From IMG/VR virus record IMGVR_UViG_3300049846_001113, positions 1 through 33,931 of that record: DNA of 33,931 nt. One strand, written 5' to 3'. The stretch is from a virus. The position numbers were made by a program, and so were the translations under genes. Shown piece by piece: positions 17,393 through 33,931 of the stretch (within the stretch, counting starts at the first letter, position 1; each line of letters starts with the position of its first letter). The notes beneath the pieces were generated by a model, which was given only the letters and a program-made list of their open reading frames with translations, did not search any database and was not told where the DNA came from.

Positions 17393-17436
17393 CCGTGGTA
17401 TGTGGTGAACTCTCCAAACTCATACACTAACCACGG
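17393..17436. other. Imperfect 44-bp dyad, candidate attP
   Basis: CCGTGGT (17393-17399) and ACCACGG (17430-17436) form the outer 7-bp arms. Weaker matches lie inside (GTG..TG against the complement of CATACAC). It spans the 36-bp gap between the convergent fibre and serine recombinase genes and enters the recombinase 3' end by 10 bp. Attachment sites of serine integrases are about 40-50 bp imperfect dyads, commonly next to the integrase gene. There is no U-tract on either side, so a terminator is less likely. Confidence 0.4.
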
Positions 17437-18869
17437 AAAATGACTTTCATCTCCAAATCTGGACTAATGGAGATATGGCACAGGCGGAGGAGCAAGCGGT
17501 TTACAATGCGCGGCTCCTCCGCTTGCATCCATTCGGGCAAGTAGGCCAGTAAAGCGCGGGCCTGTTCCAGTGTAACGCTAAACTGCTTACGGATCGTATC
17601 ACGGCGGAGCCTTTCAGCTTCGCCGTTTTTATATGCATGTATCCGCTTGTCTATCTCCCTGATTTTCCCCTCTGCCTCCTCCAGTGTGTACAGTTCGGAC
17701 TCATACGCGGCTTGCACCCGCCGCCGCTGTTTCTCCAATTCGGGCGTAGGATCGGGCGCGGGTTCGGTCTGCATGGGCGCTCCGGGCTGTACGTCATGCA
17801 GGGCTTTTTGCAACAGGCGCGGGGCCAGGGCAGATAAATGCTCGTGACGAATTAGCACATGATACTTACCGGGGCAATGCCACACAGGGACCGCGTAAGA
17901 GGGGTCATGTATCAGGCTTTTATTGCAGACCGTACAGCGTACAAGCCCGCTATATGGGTAGCGGTTCTGCTTGGGTGCGGACTTGCGGCGCTTGACCTCC
18001 TCCAAAATCGCCTGGTGCTCCTCCCATGTGACAATCGCCTTATGCCTGCCGTCCATAAGCAGGTAGTTATCATTTTGCACGCGGCGGGAGGTGTTGTTGT
18101 GCGGATCGTTGATCACCTTCCAACGCTGAAAAAAGACCTTGCCCGCATAGAACGGATTTATCAGAATTTGGCGGATCGTGGTTATCTCCCACGGCTTCCC
18201 CGTAACGGTGCTTACGTGATTCTCTTTTAGCATGGTGGCGATGGCGTCATACGTTTCACCCGCTAGAAACATATCCACCATCTTACGCACATAGGCCGCC
18301 TGAGACGGGACCAACTCAGCGGGCGCTTGTTTCTGCCCTGGTGCGCTACGGTATCCAAACGGCACGCGAATCGAGTGCAAGCCCCGATTGACGCGGGATG
18401 TTACCCCATAGCGGAATTTGCGTTTTAGGTCGCTGATCTGCCAGCGGGAGATAATTTGAGACATGCCCCGCATGATGCTCTCAGAGTCGGATGCGTACGG
18501 GTTGTACTCCTCAGGCGGTAGCGGGTCTACCGGTTGGGATACGCTGTACAGCTGGACGCCGTAGGATGATAGTGTTTTGGCTACCGGGTCTAACAGATCG
18601 CGCAAGCGGTTGTAATCGTAGAGTACCAGCAGGTCATACCGGCCCCCTTTTGCATCGTCCAACATGCTGGCAAGCGCGGGGATCGCCCGCTCTGCGTCTC
18701 TGAGATTGACCCAGCGCGTTCTGGATTCCCCCGGAACCTGATACGTCAACCCGGTATCTTGCCAGCCCTTTGCAGTGGCTACAGCGCGGGATTTAGCCTC
18801 TTGCTCTGCAAGTGAGGCGTTATCGGTTTGTTTTTCGGTGGATACAGCGGCCCAAATGGAAAAGCGCAT
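17427..18869 (-). CDS. Large serine recombinase (integrase), atypical active site
   Basis: A 480-aa recombinase expected to join phage and host attachment sites. Resolvase-type N-terminal domain: WAAVSTEKQ with nucleophile S10, then LLVLYDYNRLRDLLDPVAKTL. Recombinase domain about 160-290 (YGVTSRVNRGLHSIRVPFGYR, INPFYAGKVFF). Zinc ribbon about 308-333 (C312, C315 and C332 visible). Coiled coil about 375-425. Two departures from the classical site: the Arg two residues before the Ser (R8 in gamma-delta resolvase) is Ala, and the R-x-x-R helix motif reads R-L-R. Its ATG directly follows the stop of the 55-aa gene, at the end of the repressor operon. Confidence 0.9.
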   Translation of the reverse strand: MRFSIWAAVSTEKQTDNASLAEQEAKSRAVATAKGWQDTGLTYQVPGESRTRWVNLRDAERAIPALASMLDDAKGGRYDLLVLYDYNRLRDLLDPVAKTLSSYGVQLYSVSQPVDPLPPEEYNPYASDSESIMRGMSQIISRWQISDLKRKFRYGVTSRVNRGLHSIRVPFGYRSAPGQKQAPAELVPSQAAYVRKMVDMFLAGETYDAIATMLKENHVSTVTGKPWEITTIRQILINPFYAGKVFFQRWKVINDPHNNTSRRVQNDNYLLMDGRHKAIVTWEEHQAILEEVKRRKSAPKQNRYPYSGLVRCTVCNKSLIHDPSYAVPVWHCPGKYHVLIRHEHLSALAPRLLQKALHDVQPGAPMQTEPAPDPTPELEKQRRRVQAAYESELYTLEEAEGKIREIDKRIHAYKNGEAERLRRDTIRKQFSVTLEQARALLAYLPEWMQAEEPRIVNRLLLRLCHISISPDLEMKVIFRG

Positions 18870-25469: not shown

Positions 25470-25669
25470 GCCGAAGCCGGGTAGACATTGCGCGGGTAGT
25501 CGAGGAGCTAGGGCGCTTGAACGACAGGCGGCTACTAGCCAAAGAAATGAACGACCTGGCAGAGTTGGAAGCGGTGGCCCAGGAGTACGAACGCCGCCGT
25601 ATGGTTCGCATGGCAAGAGACGTAAGAATTAGTATTGATGTAAGAAAGGAAAAAAACCATCATGCCTAA
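25466..25669 (+). CDS. Hypothetical coiled-coil protein
   Basis: A 67-aa highly charged helical protein (RVDIARVVEELGRLNDRRLLAKEMNDLAELEAVAQEYERRRMVRMARD) starting at ATG 25466, overlapping the membrane gene. A coiled coil is likely. The 3' end overlaps the nuclease-like gene by 8 bp. Confidence 0.62.
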   Translation: MSRSRVDIARVVEELGRLNDRRLLAKEMNDLAELEAVAQEYERRRMVRMARDVRISIDVRKEKNHHA

Positions 25670-25949
25670 TCGCTACAACAAGGGGAACCGGGACAGTAAC
25701 GAGTCTGAAATTCGGGAAGTCCTTTACCGGCGCGGAGTGCAATACATCCAAATGCGCGAAGGGGCTGGCGCGGACCTGCTGGTGCTTACGAACCCCATGC
25801 AGTTATGGGAGGTCAAGAACCCGCAACAGCCACCCAGCAAACGCGCCTTGACGCCCGTAGAGGAGATCATGCAGGCGTATTGCGTACAGAGGGGTATCCC
25901 GTACCGCGTAATCGAAACCCCTGAACAAGCCGCCGCCGCGTTGGTGTAA
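25662..25949 (+). CDS. PD-(D/E)XK-like nuclease
   Basis: A 95-aa protein. ESEIREVLYRRGVQYIQMREGAGADLLVL...QLWEVKNP, with an acidic residue in GAD and a downstream E-V-K, matches the metal site of small VRR-NUC/restriction-fold nucleases. The C-terminal strand-helix (IPYRVIETPEQAAAAL) is also usual. It is preceded by a good Shine-Dalgarno (GAAAGGAA). Probable role: phage DNA recombination or branch resolution. The catalytic call is based on motif only. Confidence 0.68.
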   Translation: MPNRYNKGNRDSNESEIREVLYRRGVQYIQMREGAGADLLVLTNPMQLWEVKNPQQPPSKRALTPVEEIMQAYCVQRGIPYRVIETPEQAAAALV

Positions 25950-26129: not shown

Positions 26130-26330
26130 GTGAAAACAAAACTGCGTATTGATCTGACAGAGTACAAGCCGTATATCCAGGCGTTGCAAGACCGCCTGAA
26201 CGAAGACGGCGCGTGTAAAATGAGCATGACGGACGCGGTAAAGATTGCCATCGAAAAAGCAGTGGAAAATTTACTGCCCGATGTGAAGATAAACAAAAAG
26301 CGGAAACGGTACATTAAGATTAATTTTTAG
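26130..26330 (+). CDS. Small hypothetical protein, possible ribbon-helix-helix type
   Basis: A 66-aa basic protein with GTG start at 26130 and GAGG just upstream. The central MSMTDAVKIAIEKAVENLL could be the second and third elements of a ribbon-helix-helix fold, but the N-terminal strand is not convincing. The Lys-rich tail fits nucleic-acid binding. Function unknown. Confidence 0.55.
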   Translation: MKTKLRIDLTEYKPYIQALQDRLNEDGACKMSMTDAVKIAIEKAVENLLPDVKINKKRKRYIKINF

Positions 26331-26342
26331 ATGTACATCCTG

Positions 26343-26363
26343 CTTAACTCATAGTTCGGCGGC
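26343..26363. repeat. Cassette-boundary element 1
   Basis: CTTAACTCATAGTTCGGCGGC. Its TAAC-x-CA...GTT-x-GGCGGC layout matches elements 2 (26611-26634) and 3 (26884-26910), allowing a 2-base gap. It lies 20 bp before the first small ORF of the moron-like stretch. The core GTTCGGC departs from GTTRRRY by one base. Confidence 0.5.
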
Positions 26364-26382
26364 TTGTCCGCAAGGAGATAAA

Positions 26383-26604
26383 GTGTCAAGCAATAAGTAT
26401 ATAAAGCTGGCAGAGAAATATATGGATAATGTCGCTCGGCATTACGATCCCGTGCCGCAAGAGAGCTCCATAATTGATTTTGCAATATGGCTAGATAAGC
26501 AAGCCGCTGAACACAGCATGCAGCGGACGGGCTTCGCCTGTGACGTAGATGGCTGTAAAAAGCCTGGTGTTGTTCATCTCTGTGAAGATCATGGTTTGCA
26601 ATAG
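26383..26604 (+). CDS. Cassette ORF 1: small zinc-type protein
   Basis: A 73-aa protein with GTG start at 26383 after AAGGAG. The N-terminal part is helical and AT-rich in codon use. The end has CDVDGCKKPGVVHLCEDH, four to five Cys/His residues that could bind zinc. Composition differs from the early phage genes, suggesting recent acquisition. Unrelated to its neighbours. Confidence 0.6.
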   Translation: MSSNKYIKLAEKYMDNVARHYDPVPQESSIIDFAIWLDKQAAEHSMQRTGFACDVDGCKKPGVVHLCEDHGLQ

Positions 26605-26610
26605 CGCCCG

Positions 26611-26634
26611 CCGCTAACGCAAACCGTTAGGTGC
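26611..26634. repeat. Cassette-boundary element 2 (GTTAGGT core)
   Basis: CTAACG-CAAAC-CGTTAG inverted repeat with core GTTAGGT (26626-26632), fitting the integron GTTRRRY consensus. It is nearly identical to element 3 over TAACGCAA(A/G)CCGTT. It starts 7 bp after the preceding stop, and the next ATG follows 4 bp after its end. Confidence 0.6.
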
Positions 26635-26637
26635 TAA

Positions 26638-26892
26638 ATGAAAGTAATTTGTCCTATTTGTGAAAGAGTAATTGGCGCATATATCCCGAAAGGGGGTGAT
26701 GGTTCTGCCTATCGCCCGCGCCGTCATGGTGAATGTGAAGGTCGCTTTGAGTTGGTTGAGGAAATTTACGAAGAAGCGCACCTAACAAAGCGTGCAGCGG
26801 ACGTTTCGGCATGTCCGAGTTGCAAAGAAGTTGGTTTACGAATTGTTGATACTTGCGTTGGTTGTGGTTTCGATTACTCGAAACGCCGCTAA
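26638..26892 (+). CDS. Cassette ORF 2: double zinc-ribbon protein
   Basis: An 84-aa protein. CPIC near the start and HGEC form one Cys cluster; CPSC and CVGC form a second near the end. So probably two zinc ribbons, similar to small rubredoxin-like or transcription-linked ribbons. The stop codon falls inside boundary element 3, as gene stops often do within integron attC sites. There is no good Shine-Dalgarno before its ATG; element 2 lies directly upstream. Confidence 0.62.
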   Translation: MKVICPICERVIGAYIPKGGDGSAYRPRRHGECEGRFELVEEIYEEAHLTKRAADVSACPSCKEVGLRIVDTCVGCGFDYSKRR

Positions 26893-26910
26893 CGCAAGCC
26901 GTTGGGCGGC
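26884..26910. repeat. Cassette-boundary element 3 (GTTGGGC core)
   Basis: A GCCGCTAACG...CGTTGGGCGGC dyad, with core GTTGGGC (26901-26907) fitting GTTRRRY. It contains the stop of cassette ORF 2 (TAA 26890-26892). It is too short for a standard attC (which needs a longer hairpin), but it resembles the right-hand end of such sites. Confidence 0.6.
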
Positions 26911-26944
26911 TTCCTTGCTTGCCGAGAAGAAAGGCAAAATAAAC

Positions 26945-27214
26945 ATGATTGAAAAATTCAAGAAAGCTACAAACGAAGAAGCAGGCGATAACTGGCTTAT
27001 TTGCTGGACAGGCTCGGATGATAAAGGAAATGGCTTCAATGTCACGACCGATTGCGTCCATGCTTCCGAGTTGCACGAGTACACACGCGGCGCAGAAGGT
27101 GATGCCGATCTCATCGCTCGTTTGCTGAATTGGTATTACTTTGATCCAGACGCCGCCGAACAATGCTTGCACATGGACGCGGGCTACGCCCTTTGCAACC
27201 GCCCGCGCCAGTAA
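26945..27214 (+). CDS. Cassette ORF 3: hypothetical acidic protein
   Basis: An 89-aa protein starting at ATG 26945 (MIEKFKKATNEEAGDNWLICWTG). The longer open frame from 26792 would overlap cassette ORF 2. A strand-helix pattern with many aromatic residues and three cysteines in the second half; no motif recognised. It lies after boundary element 3. No clear fourth element follows its stop. Confidence 0.6.
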   Translation: MIEKFKKATNEEAGDNWLICWTGSDDKGNGFNVTTDCVHASELHEYTRGAEGDADLIARLLNWYYFDPDAAEQCLHMDAGYALCNRPRQ

Positions 27215-27271
27215 AGCGAACGTTGCTCGTTTATAATTTATGCGTTCTTGTAGGGAACAATAAGCAGAATA

Positions 27272-27763: not shown

Positions 27764-28081
27764 ATGGACTCAGGCGTCATTATTGCCCTCATTACGGCAG
27801 GGGCCACCATTGCAGCAAGCCTGATAGCGTTTCACGCAGGGCGGGCGGGGCGTGTTGCCCAGAACGCGGATACCCTGATTGACCTACAGAACCAAACGCA
27901 GAAGTTTTCAAATGAGTTGATAGAAGTAAAGAAACAACTGGACAGTTTCAACCATAAAAACTCTGTGCTTTGGAAGTACGTTTACGCATTGGTCGAACAG
28001 CTTCGCACAAATGATATTGTGCCTGTCCCGCCGCCCTCTGAATTGGAAACAGACCCGAAACTGATTGCATTGATCCGTTAG
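27764..28081 (+). CDS. TM-anchored coiled-coil lysis accessory protein
   Basis: A 105-aa protein. One N-terminal membrane helix (about 4-24, GVIIALITAGATIAASLIAF). Then a long coiled coil (about 35-65, ADTLIDLQNQTQKFSNELIEVKKQLDSF), an aromatic helix and a Pro-rich end. It sits between holin and endolysin, like antiholins or haemolysin-XhlA-type lysis factors (XhlA has its TM at the other end). Its stop overlaps the lysin GTG start (TAGTG). Confidence 0.7.
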   Translation: MDSGVIIALITAGATIAASLIAFHAGRAGRVAQNADTLIDLQNQTQKFSNELIEVKKQLDSFNHKNSVLWKYVYALVEQLRTNDIVPVPPPSELETDPKLIALIR

Positions 28082-29844
28082 TGAAAAACATCCTTACATC
28101 CCCCCGGCTATATTGGCTATGGCGCATAGGCTGGTTAGAGCGTGCGTTCTTTTACGCTTGCCGGGCGCTGGATAGCGGGCGCGGAACAGCGCGGGCGTTT
28201 TTGGAACTGTGGCAGGGCTTTGATATATCCTATTATCAAGGCGCTGTAAACTTTGCCAAAATGCTGGCGTATGGGGCGCGGTTTCTGGTTTTGCGGGTGG
28301 TGTATGCTGCTAAAAAGGATGTGCGCTTTGAGGAGTACATAACGGCGGCCTTTGGCCTGTTACCGTTATCAGTATATTCTTTTTACGACCCAGCCGTAGC
28401 GCCACAAACTCAGGCTAATGCGGTAATCGACGCCCTGCAACCGCATAAGGGCAAGTTCCGGCGCGTGTGGCTGGATTTTGAATTTTGGTGGAGTGGCGCA
28501 TATAGTGACCCGAAGTGGTGGAAAGTCTACCGGGATACGATAGAAGCGGCGGGATATGCAACAGGAATATACACCCGTGCTACCTGGTGGGATTCGCGGG
28601 TAGGCATTTACGCGGCGGAGTTTGCGACCCGTCCATTATGGGCGGCGCAATACTCATCCGCCTTGACGTTGATCCCTAAAGGCTGGAAAGCGGCAATGAT
28701 ATGGCAGGACAGGGTACTAACCAACGGGCCACAGGTAGGGGTATCTTCGCCGGAATTAGATCACAACCTATGGAACGCTGACTTTGACTTTTCAGCCGAA
28801 TGGAACACAGCAGGCCCGGCAATAGTCATACCGAACGGCTACACACAGATCCGGCGCTTTAGTAGTGATGTCCATATCGTGAAAACAGCGACATTCACGC
28901 GGGCGCATGTGACCAACACGGGCGGCGCATTGCGTACCGTGTCCAGTGTGGCAGGCGGCGCGGCGTATGCGATCAACGTAGACGGATGGGATAAGAGCAA
29001 GCCCGCCCCGTTCGTTCCGTTGTCCGTGGCTTGTAGTGACGGGAACCTTTACCAACCCATACAGTTTGACTTTAGGCCGTTGTTCAACATTCGCCCAGAT
29101 GGTTGGATTGAAATAGGGCACTCAGGGTTTTCAGGTTCAGACCTGTACAACGCCGGAAGCGGTACGCGGTATTTGGTCAAGGCCGGGAATAACGCGTTTG
29201 ACGGCAGTACGGACCCGGAGCATATAACAGAGCGCAATCCCCGGAGCGCACTAGGGTACACGGCAAACAGAGCCTTGATTCTCATGGTGGTAGACGGGCG
29301 GAGCGCGTCAAGCGCCGGGGTAACGTTGCACGAATTGGCGGAACTGATGAAACAGGCGGGCGCTGAATGGGCGCTTGAACTGGACGGCGGCGGCTCTTCC
29401 GCGTTGTGGGTCAAGGACCGCATTGTAAACAGGCCCAGCGACCCAACCGGAGAGCGGGCGGTAGTCAATCATTTATTGATCTATGAGGCAAATATGGCAA
29501 ACGGAACAGCACGCGAAAAGCTAGGGAATACTTCAACCGTTCGGAGCCTGCCCACTCGTTACGGGGCAAAGCTGGGGAGCGTGAATCCATATACCACGGT
29601 TGAATTTACGGAGATCGTACCGGCCCAGATCGGCGGGACGGCAGACAACCCGGCAGACAAGTGGCTGAAACTGGCTAGTGGCGGGTATGTGAATTACATC
29701 TTGAACGGTGCGGAGTATTACACGGTCTTGACGCAACCGACCCCGGAAACCCCGCCCGCCGTGCCTGATGGGATTGAGGTCAAGATCACTGAGAACGGCG
29801 TAACCAAGACGTACAGGACAGACGGCAAGGTAGTGGTTTCCTAA
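28081..29844 (+). CDS. Endolysin: GH25 muramidase + NAGPA domain + SH3-like end
   Basis: A 587-aa protein starting at GTG 28081. Residues about 44-235 form a GH25 lysozyme domain: GFDIS (D48), VWLDFEF (D132, E134), IYTRATWW and DHNLWNADFDF. Residues about 290-470 are a phosphodiester glycosidase (NAGPA-like) domain: NRALILMVVDGRSASSAGVTLHELAELMKQAGAEWALELDGGGSSALW and ERAVVNHLLIY. Residues about 475-550 look like an SH3-type wall-binding part. GH25 cuts the MurNAc-GlcNAc bond; the NAGPA domain likely acts on a sugar phosphodiester, perhaps of the wall. No signal peptide is clear, so holin-dependent export is expected. Confidence 0.9.
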   Translation: MKNILTSPRLYWLWRIGWLERAFFYACRALDSGRGTARAFLELWQGFDISYYQGAVNFAKMLAYGARFLVLRVVYAAKKDVRFEEYITAAFGLLPLSVYSFYDPAVAPQTQANAVIDALQPHKGKFRRVWLDFEFWWSGAYSDPKWWKVYRDTIEAAGYATGIYTRATWWDSRVGIYAAEFATRPLWAAQYSSALTLIPKGWKAAMIWQDRVLTNGPQVGVSSPELDHNLWNADFDFSAEWNTAGPAIVIPNGYTQIRRFSSDVHIVKTATFTRAHVTNTGGALRTVSSVAGGAAYAINVDGWDKSKPAPFVPLSVACSDGNLYQPIQFDFRPLFNIRPDGWIEIGHSGFSGSDLYNAGSGTRYLVKAGNNAFDGSTDPEHITERNPRSALGYTANRALILMVVDGRSASSAGVTLHELAELMKQAGAEWALELDGGGSSALWVKDRIVNRPSDPTGERAVVNHLLIYEANMANGTAREKLGNTSTVRSLPTRYGAKLGSVNPYTTVEFTEIVPAQIGGTADNPADKWLKLASGGYVNYILNGAEYYTVLTQPTPETPPAVPDGIEVKITENGVTKTYRTDGKVVVS

Positions 29845-33502: not shown

Positions 33503-33931
33503 ATGCCTACCCTGATATATACAAACGGATTCGAGAACGGCATATTTGGCACGAGCGGCGGCGGTATATGGACATCCGTAACCGGGACGCTTGTAACCGA
33601 AACAAGCATCTTTAGAAGCGGTAGCCGTTCCGCTAAATTAACCGTGTCTGCAAGCGCAACCGGACAAGGGCGCATCGGCAAAAGCGTTGCAGGCGCTACG
33701 TTGGTAGCCCGTTTGTATGTGCGTTTTGAAGCCCTGCCGGGTGGCAGTACGATTGTAGACATATTCAGCGTTGCCAATTCCCCGGCTACTTCCTTTGCGT
33801 CTGTCTGCTATAACCCAACTACCGGGAAACTGGGCCACAGGGTTGGAACAGCGGTACGGAATGAAGACAGCGTAACAATAACCACAGGCGTATGGTATCG
33901 GGTTGATTTTCGTAGCACGATCAGCGGCGGC
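33503..33931 (+). CDS. Lectin-like repeat adhesin, N-terminal part (continues at base 1)
   Basis: N-terminal 143 codons of a protein that continues through the contig join to 1696. The full gene is 33503-33804 joined to 1-1696, giving 665 aa. The ATG at 33503 follows the preceding gene by only 3 bp and has no strong Shine-Dalgarno. The start reads MPTLIYTNGFENG, followed by alternating beta-type sequence, as in concanavalin/LamG-like jelly rolls of phage virion proteins. The lectin assignment comes from pattern only. It sits between the terminase and portal genes, so it may decorate the head or neck rather than the tail tip. Confidence 0.8.
   Translation, partial: MPTLIYTNGFENGIFGTSGGGIWTSVTGTLVTETSIFRSGSRSAKLTVSASATGQGRIGKSVAGATLVARLYVRFEALPGGSTIVDIFSVANSPATSFASVCYNPTTGKLGHRVGTAVRNEDSVTITTGVWYRVDFRSTISGG
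33805..33931. repeat. Terminal direct repeat, copy 2
   Basis: Exact second copy of bases 1-127. Base 33805 corresponds to base 1, so features should be counted once on the circular map. Confidence 0.93.

Follow-up and report, generated by a model that had tools for sequence, protein, structure and literature searches.

The 33,931-nucleotide viral record IMGVR_UViG_3300049846_001113 of IMG/VR, analysed over its full length (hereafter the window), almost certainly carries a genuine integron cassette array at positions 26331-27228, judging from its sequence: three gene cassettes with their attC recombination sites, headed by an attI-like site, in the genome of a phage. This conclusion is supported by the anatomy of the attC sites, the covariation within them, the pairing of each R'' half with the 5' end of the cassette it belongs to, the sharing of cassettes between contigs, and the occurrence of the same attC class beside integron integrase genes (intI). 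An initial annotation of the bare sequence had proposed an integron-cassette-like array here; the full attC anatomy, the cassettes shared with precise ends and the intI genes of Anaerolineae now bear this out. With at least two attC sites and no intI, the window fits the definition of a cluster of attC sites lacking integron integrases (CALIN), and CALINs in phages are already known (Qi et al. 2023, PMC9892861). What we propose in addition is that an integron integrase (IntI) of the host works the phage array in trans, a mechanism to which, taken as a whole, we assign a probability of roughly 0.65.

Cassettes and attC sites of the array

All features of the array lie on the plus strand, and the attC count behind its classification as a CALIN comes from a weight matrix built in this analysis. 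Site attC1 (26501-26632) consists of R'' (26501-26512), L'' GCATGCAGCGGAC, a loop, L' CCGCTAACGC and R' GTTAGGT (26626-26632); attC2 (26778-26907) consists of R'' GCACCTAAC, L'' GCGTGCAGCGGAC, a loop, L' CCGCTAACGC and R' GTTGGGC (26901-26907). The terminal attC3 (27152-27228) is weaker, with R'' GCCGCCGAAC, the stem GGACGCGGGC/GCCCGCGCC, L' CCAGTAAAGC and R' GTTGCTC; its predicted fold is the expected hairpin. The initial annotation had listed three related elements, each preceding a small open reading frame (ORF). The strings occur where it placed them, and the second and third are indeed right ends of attC, namely the L'-R' halves of attC1 and attC2, whose R' sequences fit GTTRRRY as was noted; the first is a different conserved sequence, described below. 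An attC site belongs to the gene upstream of it, so that elements 2 and 3 end ORFs 1 and 2 rather than precede the next gene. Nor are the sites too short: some 100 bp further upstream, the ORFs themselves contain the R''-L'' halves, GCTGAACACAGCATGCAGCGGAC near 26506 and ACCTAACAAAGCGTGCAGCGGAC near 26780, which is why short elements were seen by a reader of the sequence alone, and the suggestion of decayed ends or another kind of element is not supported for attC1 and attC2. The third attC was missed.

Cassette 1 (272 bp, 26355-26626), bounded by G|TT, encodes 73 amino acids (26383-26604) with a Cys/His-rich C-terminus, CX4C...CX2H, within the attC loop, and its TAG stop stands just ahead of L'. 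Cassette 2 (275 bp, 26627-26901), delimited by the pairing of R'' with its own 5' end, encodes 84 amino acids (26638-26892) whose zinc-ribbon-like C-terminal tail LTKRAADVSACPSCKEVGLRIVDTCVGCGFDYSKRR comes from attC2; as annotated before, its stop lies inside element 3, where it is the TAA of L'. Cassette 3 (321 bp, 26902-27222), again bounded by G|TT, encodes 89 amino acids (26945-27214) and ends at the TAA within L' of attC3. Searches of phage and plasmid collections gave no DNA match to the window's own cassettes, and the three ORFs, like the gene at the head of the array, had no usable match in Pfam and PHROG scans.

The window contains two strings of the type TAACGCAARCCGTTRGGYG, where shuffled sequences would lead one to expect 0.04. 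Bare GTTRRRY heptamers number 40 against 65 expected; because they are not enriched, the heptamer alone is no evidence. When the 20-bp right half was searched in viral contigs, 35 stretches were found, nearly all of them with the left half RYYYAACAMAGCGTGCAGCGGAC 35-110 bp upstream. The 3' pattern of the site also occurs in 27 bacterial contigs, mostly of Anaerolineae/Chloroflexota, and outside viruses the class is nearly confined to genomes of Anaerolineae/Chloroflexota and to unclassified bins. A two-part weight-matrix scan recovered 381 attC sites in the collected loci and none in 476 kb of Markov-shuffled control. In 370 sites, the four variable pairs of the L stem are Watson-Crick in proportions of 0.88-0.93, compared to 0.34-0.65 with shuffled halves; 343 of these sites retain the extrahelical A.

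Since integron cassettes are mobilised in circular form by cutting at G|TT, R'' should pair with the 5' end of the cassette it belongs to rather than with the adjacent R'. This is what we find. The R'' of cassette 1, AAGCCGCTGAAC, matches the complement of its own 5' end AAGCCGCCGAAC at 11 of 12 positions, that of cassette 2 is the exact complement of its start GTTAGGTGC, and that of cassette 3 matches the complement of GCCGCCCAAC at 9 of 10. Across 179 viral cassettes, agreement between R'' and the own 5' end is 0.82-0.95 at each central position, whereas the match to the next junction at variable positions (0.42-0.54) equals that of shuffled sequences; 36 host cassettes show the same. Covariation between R'' and R' within a single attC site is lacking, which seemed to speak against attC until the pairing with the own 5' end removed the objection.

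Mobility of the class is indicated by cassettes shared between different contigs, with similarity ending at the cassette boundaries: L029 and L160 share one at 95%, L014 and L019 at 98%, and L190 and L196 at 95%. At least one cassette is shared between viral arrays (L186, L214) and a chromosomal integron of Anaerolineae (L150), at about 80% (80-82%) and again with homology ending at the cassette ends. An integron integrase above the NCBIfam cut-off was found in 9 of 17 genomes carrying the attC class and in 0 of 14 controls, and at three loci (L146, L150, L151) the class stands beside intI in the usual divergent layout. Since IMG/VR contigs can hold host flanks, host integrons may be present among the collected viral arrays; phage genes anchor the window and the loci found through the 66-amino-acid gene described in the next section.

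The attI-like site and the gene beside it

Directly ahead of the array, a gene for a 66-amino-acid protein (26130-26330) ends with a stop codon that abuts the attI-like site ATGTACATCCTGCTTAACTCATA G|TTCGGC (26331-26360), which would be cut between 26354 and 26355. This site, identified by its matrix score and its conservation, is the first of the three elements listed before; from its sequence it appears to be attI-like rather than an attC. That it might be a decayed attC was considered and dropped, because it is a conserved, distinct sequence which follows the 66-amino-acid gene and heads different arrays. It scores 37.7 with a position weight matrix from which the window's own site was kept out, against a null maximum of 5.8. 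About 20 other viral contigs have the motif RTGTACATTCYGYWYAAANMMTA|GTTRGG at the head of their cassette arrays, in many of them directly 3' of the stop codon of the 66-amino-acid gene, and different phage contigs possess different cassettes behind it. Position and conservation thus mark the site, with one mismatch in the junction.

The same arrangement is recovered from the protein side. A search with the 66-amino-acid protein alone, based on four closer homologues because an alignment of nine was too diverse for scanning, returned nine loci; each of the nine is followed on the same strand by an attC array, and the attI-like site is present in eight. Three of them (L247-L249) are one identical module and several of the nine are contigs already collected, so that about seven loci are independent. 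Four loci (L242, L243, L245, L246) have a terminase of another type (phrog_5909), which argues that the module is common to unlike phages. Furthermore, a contig whose terminase is 60% identical to that of the window (L042) has an attI scoring 38.8 (null maximum 5.8) and, in the corresponding genome position, an array of six attC sites whose cassettes are different ones. We consider it highly likely that the conserved gene, the attI-like site and the array form a platform maintained by the phages.

The phage site is also related to that of the host integrons. The phage matrix places the true attI junction at the top position in 7 of 11 regions upstream of host intI genes, with P <= 0.04 in four; the core is therefore shared with host attI, and the left part differs. 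For the 66-amino-acid protein, a helix-helix-beta hairpin is predicted (predicted local distance difference test, pLDDT, 75). The fold search with this model gave no significant match in PDB, a winged-helix-like structure at best, and among annotated phage records neither the gene nor the array found a match.

Source of the integrase

No match to the integron integrase model TIGR02249 was found in the whole window at E <= 0.01, and the arrangement of a complete integron, with intI next to attI, is absent from it. As the phage has no intI, we take a host IntI acting in trans to be the best explanation. A host cell with a chromosomal integron would supply IntI, which would bind the folded bottom strand of the attC of a circular cassette and insert the circle at the G|TT of the phage attI; cassettes would be excised through attC x attC recombination. 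Once inserted, they would be co-transcribed with the phage genes upstream of them and would be disseminated by the phage. The 66-amino-acid protein might assist, for example by binding attI, and the cassettes would presumably benefit the phage. Because the phage is without an integrase, we infer rather than observe that the array serves as a route of cassette capture.

Several observations weigh against this interpretation. The evidence for recombination comes from the comparison of sequences, and an IntI in the host of this particular phage is assumed. Integron integrases above the cut-off are encoded in 4 of 50 related attC-bearing viral records, with one more just below it, so that use in trans is not universal. 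No 66-amino-acid gene was seen upstream of the attI of L042, and another terminase relative (L038) has attC sites with no recognisable attI. Within the window, the attI junction GTTCGGC is one base off GTTRRRY, the R'' GCTGAAC of attC1 is one base off RYYYAAC, the R' GTTGCTC of attC3 departs from the consensus, and attC3 scores below the matrix threshold. Free single-strand folding by minimum free energy, compared with shuffles, gives z values of only -1.1, -1.8 and -0.6 for the three attC sites, long loops favouring local hairpins.

The viral integrases just mentioned also raise the alternative that the array is moved by the IntI of other phages, in trans or after loss from this lineage, instead of a host IntI. 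A viral contig (L237) has a full-length IntI match (257 bits) and a relative of the 66-amino-acid gene beside an attI of the ATGTACATTCCG type, and may link the two layouts. Yet the majority of attC-bearing viral records are without IntI, and the sequences after intI in L233-L236 do not contain the ATGTACATTCCG motif; we regard this source as rather unlikely. The intI-bearing viral contigs share the layout of Treponema-type integrons, in which intI reads toward attI (PMC3607928); in our phage the co-directional gene encodes the 66-amino-acid protein, not IntI.

A passive and decaying fragment of a host chromosomal integron, captured once by illegitimate recombination, would account for the lack of intI and for the degenerate terminal attC3, and an origin of phage CALINs by off-target or illegitimate recombination has been proposed (PMC9892861). 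What makes this origin improbable is that the order of gene, attI and array recurs in phages with unrelated terminases and with different cassettes, that the phage attI is conserved in its own right and differs from host attIs outside the core, and that viral arrays preserve both the covariation of attC and the R'' rule. It is generally known that inverted repeats close to the end of a gene can function as terminators, and the repeats of the array could in principle be a conserved family of terminators or intergenic palindromes rather than integron sites. Such a family is contradicted by R'' halves that pair with the far end of their own cassette, hundreds of bases upstream, instead of the adjacent R', by homology between contigs that stops at G|TT, and by the association of the attC class with intI; this explanation we hold to be extremely improbable.

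Compared to known systems, the window resembles the 17 CALINs described by Qi et al. in temperate and virulent phages (PMC9892861), which likewise are attC arrays without intI. IntI1 recombined five of six tested phage attC sites, and one CALIN, in the Shewanella prophage M16-3, is headed by an attI of host type (PMC9892861). In contrast to the window, no conserved phage-specific attI or associated gene was reported across lineages for these CALINs, and Chloroflexi and Anaerolineae are absent from the text of that study (PMC9892861). The chromosomal integrons of Anaerolineae share with the phage the attC class and a related attI core. In these host arrays intI is present, with a divergent orientation where the locus is clearest, and the attC loops are for the most part uniform and seem not to encode protein, whereas the phage possesses no intI, another left part of attI, and coding loops in attC1 and attC2. 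For an attI module conserved among phages, and likewise for zinc tails encoded by attC, we found no precedent in the open-access literature, a weak negative given that most subscription journals were outside its scope.

Zinc tails within attC and the phage genome

Coding loops are present in many viral attC sites. Two CxxC motifs within the final 40 residues are present in 18 of 136 viral ORFs that stop at the TAA of L', compared to 29 of 2784 other ORFs (13% vs 1%); the Fisher P value of 5e-13 overstates independence, since the loci are related to each other. The motif is bound to one frame, with 19 sites in frame 0 and 0 and 2 in the others. The tails are similar in 43 of 171 pairs, although part of this similarity is structural because the linker of the tail is itself attC sequence; of the proteins ahead of them, only 1 of 171 pairs is similar. 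Unrelated genes thus bear a similar in-frame tail within attC, as if attC together with its tail had been attached to a variety of genes. The tails use both cysteine codons (TGC/TGT 41/35), consistent with selection at the protein level. Pfam returns weak matches of the tails to zinc ribbons and to the DnaJ CxxCxGxG motif, almost all under the curated cut-offs. A second type of tail, CxxCxGxG as in the central domain of DnaJ and in Anti-TRAP, occurs on unrelated proteins in L018, L023, L034, L120, L195 and L213. Among host attC sites, 1 of 74 has a zinc tail, in a small sample dominated by a few genomes. Loops of the host type are uniform and apparently non-coding (GTGTGGGAKTCT...CCCGCCCACAC) in L128-L130, L133-L137 and L144, unlike most viral ones. 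Tentatively, and at somewhat less than even odds, we combine both lines into one proposal: phages of Chloroflexota keep a capture platform, made of the 66-amino-acid gene and attI, which borrows the IntI of the host, and their attC encodes a tail of zinc-ribbon or DnaJ CxxCxGxG type that is joined in frame to unrelated proteins.

The window has a direct terminal repeat of 127 bp (1-127 = 33805-33931), which makes it very likely that this phage genome is complete and circularly permuted. Its proteins include a portal, a terminase large subunit, a DnaB helicase, a major head protein and a tape measure; the closest terminase among annotated phages reaches 54% identity across 73% of the query. The host group is probably Anaerolineae. 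A large serine recombinase encoded on the minus strand (17427-18869), between the tail fibre and the replication genes, is probably the phage's own integrase, and on this ground the phage is probably temperate. The cassettes share the reading direction of the phage and precede the lysis and packaging genes, among them an endolysin-like gene (28081-29844) that joins GH25 lysozyme and NAGPA phosphodiester glycosidase domains in a single chain. Two genes ahead of the 66-amino-acid gene, a small ORF (25662-25949) has a weak match to TnsA-like nucleases (E 0.036).

If the proposal holds, phages take a regular part in integron evolution instead of carrying cassettes by accident: equipped with an insertion site of its own, a phage lineage could gather cassettes from host integrons and move them between cells. 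The zinc tails bear on the question of how genes gain attC sites; if our interpretation of them is true, the acquisition of an attC would both mobilise a gene and add a domain to its protein.
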